Assembly: GCF_944393015.1 (NCBI RefSeq)
Contig: NZ_CALXYQ010000014.1
Span: forward strand, 1-60,951
Direction of reading: 5' to 3'
DNA from: an uncultured Brachyspira sp.
GTDB taxonomy: Bacteria; Spirochaetota; Brachyspiria; Brachyspirales; Brachyspiraceae
DNA: 60,951 bases
Positions 27,754-33,903 of this stretch are shown here, piece after piece. The position numbers and the translations under genes were made by a program. The notes under the pieces were generated by a model. The model ran no database searches. It saw nothing but the letters and a program-made list of their open reading frames with translations, and was not told the origin of the DNA. Position 1 is the stretch's first letter; each line of letters begins with the position of its first letter.

Positions 27754-27774
27754 GCAATTAGGCAATAACTATAC

Positions 27775-27840
27775 AGCTTATATAAGTTCATAATATGGCT
27801 GAACGTTTCTACCAATTACCTCAATAATTGACTATAAGTT
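27775..27840 (+). promoter_or_regulatory. Purine riboswitch aptamer, guanine type
   Basis: The three-way junction can be drawn by eye. P1 is AGCTTATA with TATAAGTT. P2 is GTTCA with TGAAC around an AATATGG loop. The J2/3 core is GTTTCTAC. P3 is CAATTA with TAATTG, and J3/1 is ACT. The loop-loop contact GG/CC is kept. Core positions U22, U47 and U51 are U, and position 74 is C (27832), which specifies guanine rather than adenine. P2 has one pair fewer than in xpt. ACCTC in the P3 loop region is complementary to GAGGT of the downstream Shine-Dalgarno, hinting at translational control. I see no clear terminator. Confidence 0.9.
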
Positions 27841-27876
27841 TTTATGCCTTATTTTAATTAACGGAGGTATCAATAT

Positions 27877-31017: not shown

Positions 31018-32148
31018 TTAAAACTTTCTTTTTAATACTATAGCTTTATGAGGGCATAATTCCTGACAGCAATAACAAGATATACAATGTTTATAATAAT
31101 ATTCAGGCGGATAATCTTTACCTTTTTTATCAAAATTAAGTGCAAGTGGTGTTACAGGGCAAACCTTTACGCAAACACCGCATTTCACACATTTATTTTT
31201 TTCTATTACAGGTTTAGGTATTATCGTTGCAAAAAGTCTTTTAATTATAGGGAATTTACTCAACTTCATTAAACTTCTTCCTATACCTATTCCTTTATGA
31301 GGCTTTTTGAAATCTGTTACCTTTACGCTTTCTATACCATCGCCGACAACTTCTATTTCCTCTTTATTTGAAAATCCATGTTTAAATCCCATTTTCAAAG
31401 TTGGTATACTATTATAATCGAATGATATTATTTGAGAAGCAACATAATCCAAAGCTACAGCATCTGCTGACACTATTAAAGCATTAACTTTTCTAGGGTT
31501 TCCGTTTCTAGGTCCGTTGCCTTCCATAGCTAAAATTCCGTCCATTATATAAAGTTTTGGATTAACAAGTTTATTCAAATCAAGAAGCATAGTAGAAAAA
31601 TCTTCAAAATCTGGAAGCTTCAAATGATATTCTGCCTTTCTAAAACCTGGTATGCATCCAAATTGATTTTTTACTGCTCCTGTCATAGTTGTAAGGGCAT
31701 GCGATTTTAATTTCGGTAAACTTATTATTACATCAGCTTCCTGTATAGGCTTTGCTATAGTAAAACTTTTCTCCTGCACTCCGTCATCATAAGTAACACC
31801 TACAGGCTCTTCAAAATCAGCGTATTTAACATTCAATTTATTGGCTATTTCATCTATACCAGATTTCAATGCCACACTGCTTCCCTTACCTATTCCCGGA
31901 GAATCTCCATAAGAAATATTTTTAGTTTTTTCATGAAGTATAGATACAATAGCCTCAAATACTACTGGGTGAGTTGTTACAGATCTTTCAGCAGTTTCAG
32001 CAGCTAAAAAATTAGGTTTAAGCAATACCTTATCATTTTCTTTAACAAATAAATCTATTCCGCCAATCAAATCTATAGCTTTTTTAATAGCAGATTTAAC
32101 TTCCTCTAAATCATAATTTTCACATTTTATTACAGCAACTTTACTCAT
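31018..32148 (-). CDS. DUF362 protein with two 4Fe-4S clusters
   Basis: This 376-aa protein has the DUF362 domain (about 1-290). It shows VLLKPNFL, TTHPVVFEAI, YGDSPGIGKGSS, ISLPKLKSHALTTMTGAVKN and a YIMDGI motif. A C-terminal ferredoxin-like pair of clusters follows: CVKCGVCVKVCPV and CISCYCCQELCP. It is probably a cytoplasmic redox protein of unknown substrate. The start is placed at the ATG at 32148, since AGGAG lies 6 nt upstream. A longer frame to 32184 adds 12 residues without a ribosome binding site. It is monocistronic, convergent with the nucleotidase. Confidence 0.9.
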   Translation of the reverse strand: MSKVAVIKCENYDLEEVKSAIKKAIDLIGGIDLFVKENDKVLLKPNFLAAETAERSVTTHPVVFEAIVSILHEKTKNISYGDSPGIGKGSSVALKSGIDEIANKLNVKYADFEEPVGVTYDDGVQEKSFTIAKPIQEADVIISLPKLKSHALTTMTGAVKNQFGCIPGFRKAEYHLKLPDFEDFSTMLLDLNKLVNPKLYIMDGILAMEGNGPRNGNPRKVNALIVSADAVALDYVASQIISFDYNSIPTLKMGFKHGFSNKEEIEVVGDGIESVKVTDFKKPHKGIGIGRSLMKLSKFPIIKRLFATIIPKPVIEKNKCVKCGVCVKVCPVTPLALNFDKKGKDYPPEYYYKHCISCYCCQELCPHKAIVLKRKF

Positions 32149-32189
32149 AGAACTCCTATTATTGCTAATAAAAATTGTTTGCATAGATA

Positions 32190-32255: not shown

Positions 32256-32330
32256 TATTATTATTGTTATGCTCGCCTACGCCTAAAGGCTTAACTTAAT
32301 AAATTAAGTTAAGGGCTTCGGCTCGCTTTT
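32256..32330 (-). repeat. Dispersed repeat family 2 copy
   Basis: Read on the minus strand, it goes from GCGAGCCGAAGCCCTTAAC through a TTAACTTAATTTATTAAG palindromic middle to GGCGAGCATAACAATAAT. It is the inverse of the copy at 21641-21730. Confidence 0.65.
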
Positions 32331-32440: not shown

Positions 32441-32881
32441 TTTCTTTAACGCACGGTAAGTAAAGCTATATTCATAATTAAAATTGCCATTATTAGTTGA
32501 TTCACATATTAAATTTTATTCACCGTGCGGTAATAAATACTATAATACTTATTTAAACTTGGGTGGGCAGCAAAAATAACAGTAAAAATTTTTAAAGAAA
32601 ATAAAGCAAAAATGAAAAAAAATAATAAAAAGCCTATAGGGCGGGCATGTAAATAAAGTTTTAAAACTTATTTTCATTCCCACACTTTATATTTTTTTAC
32701 TTAATTTTAATTTTTTATTTTTCACTTTCTTATTGCTTAATTAGAACTTATAGCACCCACCCAAGTGATTTTTAAATTTAAAATATCAATACCGCACGCA
32801 GAACTAAATTAAAAACATACACTTATTTTTAATTATAATCAAAATAAAAATTGAAGTTTTGTTTACCGTGCGTTAAAGAAA
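32441..32881. repeat. 441 bp imperfect long palindrome
   Basis: The 19 bp ends TTTCTTTAACGCACGGTAA (32441-32459) and their exact reverse complement (32863-32881) frame the element. Inside, TACCGCACG and its complement, then ACTTGGGTGGG (32557-32567) and its complement (32756-32766), share the same midpoint near 32661. The centre is AAGTTTTAAAACTT. The whole block is therefore one decayed inverted repeat with no coding frame. It fills most of the gap between the DUF362 and glycosyltransferase genes. Confidence 0.9.
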
Positions 32882-32904: not shown

Positions 32905-33903
32905 TTATTTATCATTCTTATAATATTTGTATCTGTTTTCTCTATATCGTATAGATACATCTTTTCCAAATAATGTAAATCTTATATAATTATATTTGCA
33001 TTTTATTTTACTATAATACTCTTTTATTGTGTTAGACTCTATAAAAATAATAAACTCTTTAGAAAAATATTTATTGTAATCTTCTTTATCAATATCTTTT
33101 ACAACTTTATTTAAAGTATTTTTTATAATATCAAAAATCTTTCTCTCATCATCAGGAGTAAAATTTTTTGTTCTAAATGCAAGAAAAGCCTCGCCTTCAA
33201 TATATTTAGCAAATGATAAAGACTTACTATCCCAAAAATTATATTTAGTATAAAAATCCTCTAATAACTCAAACCATTTAGGTATAGCTTCCAATAATAT
33301 CTTAGGTTCTTTAACAGCTCTTTGTGAATCCTGTCCAGACCTTTTCACATAATGATAATTTACACTGTATTCAAAACTAACATTATTAGTATACATTAAA
33401 AGTTCATGCGAAAATATCCCATCTTCTCCAGGCTGAACATTCAATGGATATCTCAAATATTTATAATTATCTAATATAGACTTTTTGATAAACATTGACC
33501 AAGTTGGAAGTGCTGAATGATAATCTTTATTTACTCTTTTATCTAAATTCCAAAAACTGCTTAATACCACTAAATCACTGTTATTTTTTTTAGCATTATT
33601 ATAAAAAACTTCAATAAAATTATTATCTATATAATCATCACTGTCAATACAAAATAAATATTCGCCTTTAGCCTTATCTATTCCGTCATTTCTTGCTGCA
33701 GATACTCCGGCATTTTTTTTATCTATTATAATTATTCTATTATCTTTATTAGCATACTCTTTTAATATCTCAAGCGAATCATCAGTAGATCCGTCATTAA
33801 TACATATTATTTCTAAATTTTTATATGTCTGATTAATTACACTATCCAAACAAGCTCTTAAATATTTTGAAACATTATAAACAGGTATTATTATACTAAT
33901 CAT
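32905..33903 (-). CDS. Family 2 glycosyltransferase
   Basis: This 332-aa cytoplasmic GT-A enzyme opens with ISIIIPVYNVSKYLRACLDSV. Nucleotide-binding residues are in CINDGSTDDSLEIL, the AGVSAARNDGIDKAKGEY loop follows, and the metal-binding DSDD lies in FCIDSDDYID. It should transfer a sugar from a nucleotide donor, probably to lipopolysaccharide-like or other surface glycan. The C-terminus (about 280-332) is Lys/Tyr-rich and less conserved. It is a single gene bounded by the long palindrome and a terminator of the next operon. Confidence 0.94.
   Translation of the reverse strand: MISIIIPVYNVSKYLRACLDSVINQTYKNLEIICINDGSTDDSLEILKEYANKDNRIIIIDKKNAGVSAARNDGIDKAKGEYLFCIDSDDYIDNNFIEVFYNNAKKNNSDLVVLSSFWNLDKRVNKDYHSALPTWSMFIKKSILDNYKYLRYPLNVQPGEDGIFSHELLMYTNNVSFEYSVNYHYVKRSGQDSQRAVKEPKILLEAIPKWFELLEDFYTKYNFWDSKSLSFAKYIEGEAFLAFRTKNFTPDDERKIFDIIKNTLNKVVKDIDKEDYNKYFSKEFIIFIESNTIKEYYSKIKCKYNYIRFTLFGKDVSIRYRENRYKYYKNDK

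Follow-up and report, generated by a model that had tools for sequence, protein, structure and literature searches.

The palindromic block at positions 32441-32881 of the window (the whole 60,951-nt stretch of DNA from an uncultured Brachyspira sp. analysed here) is one copy of a genus-specific, modular and noncoding repeat, whose conserved boxes are putative DNA sites for a protein and whose modules would have been spread in trans. We give this reading a probability of about 0.6. The repeat is best read as a BIME-like mosaic intergenic repeat. It reaches more than 100 half-units per genome in several Brachyspira and appears to be an undescribed, genus-specific family, since a search of open-access papers in PMC turned up no account of it. 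The copies provide typing markers and are likely break points of assemblies and of rearrangements. They also raise two questions: what protein in this AT-rich spirochaete recognises invariant GC boxes that keep a fixed spacing, and what spreads such boxes without a RAYT.

Modular construction of the palindrome

The initial annotation described three nested inverted arm pairs with a shared midpoint near 32661, and all of them are present. They are formed by 32441-32459 (TTTCTTTAACGCACGGTAA) and its reverse complement at 32863-32881, by 32524-32532 (CGTGCGGTA) with 32790-32798 (TACCGCACG) and by 32557-32567 (ACTTGGGTGGG) with 32756-32766 (CCCACCCAAGT). An extra inner pair, GGGCGGG at 32639-32645 and CCCACAC at 32679-32685, had been missed; the common midpoint of all pairs is at 32661-32663. 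Taken alone, the perfect 19-mer is unremarkable: in dinucleotide shuffles of this AT-rich block the longest perfect inverted repeat averaged 12.6 and reached up to 24. The symmetry of the block as a whole is far more telling: the gapped alignment of the block with its own reverse complement scores 284 versus 128.6 for 300 shuffles (sd 14.4, maximum 176), some 10 standard deviations above them. The block had also been called noncoding, and indeed no ORF of at least 60 aa lies within it. A coding role was rejected on the same ground and because a frame seen by eye to be open in one copy is stopped in others.

Mapping of the boxes over all copies resolves the repeat into two modules, A (CGCACG-74-CGTGCG) and B (GGGYGGG-78-GGGYGGG). 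The two A boxes are 73-75 bp apart in 240/277 cases and the two B boxes 77-79 bp apart in 144/178, with an A-to-B distance of 36.5-37.5 bp in 149/178. From B to B′ across an AT-rich centre the distance is ~42 bp (about 40-44), and the full period of the repeat is ~344 bp.

The window copy (32450-32872), recognised by BLAST in its own genome, box map and half types, is an eight-box element of the form A-B-B′-A′ with the L-type half first on the plus strand. Its left half carries four boxes on the plus strand. Box 1 (CGCACG, 32450-32455), the outer box of left module A, is 95-99% conserved per position over 188 half-units; box 2 (CGTGCG, 32524-32529), the inner box of that module, lies 74 bp from it. 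Left module B comprises box 3 (GGGTGGG, 32561-32567), 37 bp after box 2, and box 4 (GGGCGGG, 32639-32645), 78 bp after box 3; boxes 2 to 4 are assigned by box map, conservation and spacing. B and B′ meet at an AT-rich palindromic centre, AAGTTTTAAAACTT (32656-32669), seen in the self-alignment. The right half carries its boxes on the minus strand. Box 5 (CCCACAC, 32679-32685) is a decayed CCCACCC, as shown by comparison with the orthologue in genome G009, where it is intact. Box 6 (CCCACCC, 32756-32762) belongs to module B′ and box 7 (CGCACG, 32793-32798) is the inner box of right module A′, both assigned by box map and self-alignment. Box 8 (CGTGCG, 32867-32872), the outer box of A′, was placed by box map and ORFs and is found ~33 bp beyond the stop codon that ends a glycosyltransferase-like gene (32905-33903, minus strand). 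The repeat thus sits just behind this stop codon, between it and a promoter-like site (32398-32371, minus strand) of the next gene, a DUF362/ferredoxin-like ORF named from its sequence (31018-32184, minus strand).

Modules are joined alternately inverted or head to tail, producing forms with 4, 6, 8 or more boxes. In one set the commonest forms were a six-box form centred on A (21), the four-box AB (20) and the eight-box form of the window (11); longer chains and head-to-tail forms are also present, and many forms end in module B. Since the six- and four-box forms are commoner than the eight-box form, the nested arms of the palindrome are the boxes themselves, and the palindrome is not the unit of the repeat. 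The symmetry would then be a product of the alternating order of modules and not of a hairpin. In another uncultured Brachyspira (locus L250, 5176-6739) a long head-to-tail AB chain (cC>>cC>>cC>>cC) replaces the usual alternating order.

The half-units are of two types, L and R, and in 35 of the 43 centres where two halves join, an L is paired with an R. Halves that meet at one centre are less alike than halves from different elements. The proposal of a head-to-head pair of one repeat of ~220 bp holds insofar as the block consists of two half-units of one family, but these are of different types. A recent origin followed by decay of the symmetry is contradicted, the halves being two old and separately conserved types.

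Occurrence in Brachyspira and history of the window copy

BLAST of the block against its own genome gave 98 matches, and the box pattern CGTGCGKT - 18-34 bp - TWGGGYGGG identified 146 half-units there, with 0 for the reversed control. Some BLAST match to the block occurs in 26/26 Brachyspira genomes; three of these (G001, G003 and G020) have only a few weak matches and 0 exact matches to the box pattern. The sequence TTAACGCACGGTAA is present in 23/26 Brachyspira genomes and in 0/5 genomes of related genera. With copies throughout the genus and 146 half-units in its own genome, the block is not the chance relic, lacking any other Brachyspira copy, that the initial annotation had allowed for. 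In a scan of 84,980 species, with one genome per species, nearly all of the matches listed were from Brachyspira. Five non-Brachyspira matches among those listed look like chance, because they sit in DNA of 57-71% GC. Phage, plasmid and viral-contig collections gave no match. To judge from these sequence searches, the repeat is probably confined to Brachyspira, none having been found outside the genus among the matches listed.

Near-identical paralogues of the repeat occur in G004, in G011 and in the genome of the window. In the genome of the window, several copies and chains surrounding a TPR-repeat gene (C9 41000-46000; L024, L033 and L034) are almost identical, which suggests that they were duplicated together with genes. 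In G010 (C1, 1.28-1.84 Mb; L207-L228) the L half has a species-specific consensus, GTTGAAGAG...GCACTTGGGTGGG, and the many copies sharing this distinct consensus suggest a later, recent amplification in that species.

The orthologous locus was anchored on the flanking DUF362-like gene. The window copy is also present in G009, G006, G005, G004 and G007, and in another form in G022. G018 and G015 have the same flanking genes and an empty site, and the repeat is also absent from G025, which is nested among the carriers; G023 and G024, whose contigs break at or near the repeat, were left unscored. In a tree of the DUF362-like gene all carriers fall into a single clade that also contains G025, and the simplest account is therefore that the window copy was gained once in one clade and later lost in one member. 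The sequence at the junction in G025 would be consistent with loss by deletion between TAAA microhomologies.

Conservation of the boxes but not of pairing

Conservation of the G and C positions in the boxes is ~95-100% over 188 half-units, a figure to be read with caution because the copies were collected partly by box patterns or BLAST, a procedure biased towards those whose boxes are intact. Full elements are ~65% identical overall. The spacers drift to ~65% identity, the spacing of the boxes is steady within a few bases, and internal boxes are as well conserved as end boxes. Binding of a protein at a fixed pitch would explain why G/C boxes persist at ~27% GC and keep a constant spacing as the spacers drift. 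Short GC boxes that do not vary, spacers that do and a constant distance between boxes, together with the lack of covariation described below, make the boxes look like protein-binding sites on DNA. The protein or complex that would bind them at this pitch may belong to the host or be specific to the element. In the orthologues of the window copy 36/45 box sites are invariant versus 9/52 for spacer G/C. Several boxes of the G007 orthologue have decayed, and hence selection does not act on all copies. The likeness of the boxes could also be maintained by gene conversion among copies.

The G-rich boxes might alternatively form a G-quadruplex pair, since the arrangement GGG-Y-GGG ...70 nt... GGG-Y-GGG, all in the same strand, agrees with a 1-long-1 loop pattern. 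Folded quadruplexes with long central loops have been reported from human 5′-UTRs (PMC4114690), and in the repeat the loop base is T or C in ~97% of copies and G in ≤1%, with G tracts 96-100% conserved. This reading explains neither the CGCACG/CGTGCG boxes nor why the central loop has a fixed length, with boxes 77-79 bp apart, and we consider it very improbable.

The initial annotation had also proposed a long hairpin RNA. The window copy does fold much more stably than shuffled sequences, whichever strand is taken (z -7.0 and -6.7), which is what any palindrome does and not a trait kept by the family. In an RNAalifold analysis of 37 oriented elements, pairing was by the invariant boxes only and the covariation term was -0.08 and -0.03 on the two strands; with covariation of about zero, an RNA spanning the whole element was rejected. 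A local RNA hairpin of module A was discarded as well, since the two arms of this module differ systematically and anti-covary (z -6.8). Among 42 eight-box elements, outer arms and flanks from a single copy match each other no better than those taken from different (shuffled) copies. The perfect 19-bp end is confined to the window copy and its G009 orthologue, and a perfect terminal inverted repeat was therefore rejected as a family trait; the ends common to the family are only CGCACG/CGTGCG and a weak TTAA. Given the L and R halves, the non-covarying arms and the 19-bp end peculiar to one locus, hairpin pairing is not conserved by the family.

These observations bear directly on the idea that the copies act as a long structured RNA or 3′-UTR element, read behind genes as an mRNA stabiliser or bidirectional terminator. 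Such a role would agree with the position of copies close behind stop codons and with the strong fold of the window copy. It is made improbable by the lack of covariation on either strand, by the anti-covarying arms of module A and the eight-box arms that are no more complementary than shuffled ones, and by the commonest forms, which are devoid of the full palindrome. Moreover, no terminator-like site was found and no Rfam family reached its gathering score over the repeat.

Genomic position, mobility and relation to known repeats

Only 2/248 copies lie inside ORFs, as called by a simple mechanical and uncurated script, the other 246 being intergenic. The outermost box is at a median of 71.5 bp from 3′ ends versus 129.5 bp from 5′ ends (p=6e-15), and convergent intergenic regions outnumber divergent ones among the copies (67 vs 37). 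In a first set, measured from the element edge, the medians were 20 bp (3′ ends) and 100 bp (5′ ends); half of the 136 3′-end neighbours had the stop codon within 20 bp of the edge, versus 5/90 of the 5′-end neighbours. This closeness to 3′ ends may simply reflect avoidance of promoters. Copies would survive where they disrupt nothing, in the interval that separates a stop codon from the promoter or terminator that follows.

No target-site duplication was detected in 36 A-bounded elements at all offsets and for lengths of 2-9, the best z being 3.2 among ~2,000 tests. The Y1_Tnp domain (RAYT, PF01797) was found in 0/26 Brachyspira genomes and in 5/14 known genomes used as a positive control, and a RAYT or IS200-605 enzyme was accordingly rejected as the mobiliser. 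A carrier gene between neighbouring copies was also rejected: only accessory genes, named by eye (TPR protein, PD-(D/E)XK-like, HicA/HicB-like), and no transposase occur there. The modules would instead be spread by an enzyme encoded elsewhere and acting in trans.

A purely selfish MITE- or REPIN-like element, in which the boxes would be the recognition sites of the mobilising enzyme and would owe their conservation solely to the failure of copies with bad boxes to spread, must be weighed here. It would account for the gain in one clade, for the distinct consensus of many G010 copies, as after recent amplification, and for the near-identical paralogues in three genomes. However, boxes outlast spacer G/C in orthologous copies that stayed in place, internal boxes are as conserved as the ends, and neither a target-site duplication nor, in 26 genomes, a Y1 transposase was detected. 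We therefore regard a purely selfish origin as rather unlikely.

MITEs and the Correia/NEMIS elements are short, do not code for protein, have inverted ends and are acquired between genes. The Brachyspira repeat shares these properties, with an empty site in relatives, and differs in lacking a detected target-site duplication and a perfect terminal repeat across copies, in conserving internal boxes like the ends and in being truncated at module borders. Without a detected target duplication or shared perfect ends it is not a standard MITE, contrary to one initial suggestion. ERIC and BOX are palindromic or modular intergenic repeats of certain lineages, BOX being built of modules. The Brachyspira repeat is likewise palindromic or modular, intergenic and lineage-restricted, but has other sequences and sizes, GC boxes at fixed pitch and tandem chains with a period of ~344 bp.

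The closest likeness is to the BIMEs and REP sequences of enterobacteria, Pseudomonas and Stenotrophomonas (PMC2817692). Like these, the Brachyspira repeat is high-copy and intergenic, has regularly spaced alternating modules, mosaic forms and copies at gene 3′ ends, and is proposed to carry protein-binding sites. Unlike REP sequences, which are hairpin-forming palindromes of 20-40 bp (PMC2817692), its boxes are 6-7 bp long and 37-78 bp apart, its arms do not covary and its genus is devoid of RAYT/Y1 transposases. With REPINs (PMC3116915) it shares inverted pairs of conserved short motifs flanking a spacer and populations that are kept vertically; it differs from them in having no RAYT and no conserved pairing, and its direct G-box pairs have no REPIN counterpart. 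Since no Y1 transposase is found in 26 genomes and the units are not short hairpins, the repeat falls outside the REP/RAYT family.

The copies are unevenly placed along some chromosomes. As the genome of the window consists of 111 contigs, the distribution was analysed in G004, G007, G009, G010 and G011. The half opposite dnaA contains 27/28 loci in G010 (KS p=4e-8) and, counting plus-strand matches only, 48/56 in G004 (p=3e-8); copies are also concentrated opposite dnaA in G007 (p=1.6e-6). Enrichment is weak in G009, with few sites (p=0.07), and absent in G011 (p=0.78). Copies thus lie mostly in the origin-far half in three of four usable chromosomes.

In E. coli, matS sites mark the terminus region of the chromosome, and by analogy the copies might be chromosome-organising sites that mark the half opposite the origin. 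We consider this unlikely. The strong enrichment in G010, G004 and G007 speaks for it, but it is lacking in G011 and weak in G009, mobile and accessory DNA likewise gathers near the terminus, and GC skew sampled in G007 did not clearly place the terminus. If functional, the bias would point to a novel means by which part of a chromosome is marked. A further, speculative extension would combine position with pitch: a Brachyspira protein or complex might wrap the 344-bp period (~37, 74, 78 and 42 bp) at more than 100 sites in the origin-far half, as a fixed-pitch nucleoprotein scaffold and dispersed mark of a chromosome domain. We think it unlikely; if true, it would be a mark unlike any known bacterial one.

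Two other features of the window were observed. Between the repeat and the DUF362-like gene lies another hairpin, distinct from the repeat and rich in GC (32271-32325; minus-strand sequence GCGAGCCGAAGCCCTTAACTTAATTTATTAAGTTAAGCCTTTAGGCGTAGGCGAGC). The G025 locus does not include it. With 3 mismatches allowed, a portion of this hairpin has six further occurrences in the genome of the window, one of them beside another copy of the repeat (C12:39456). A purine riboswitch aptamer (Rfam RF00167, 59 bits) is located at 27758-27854 on the plus strand.
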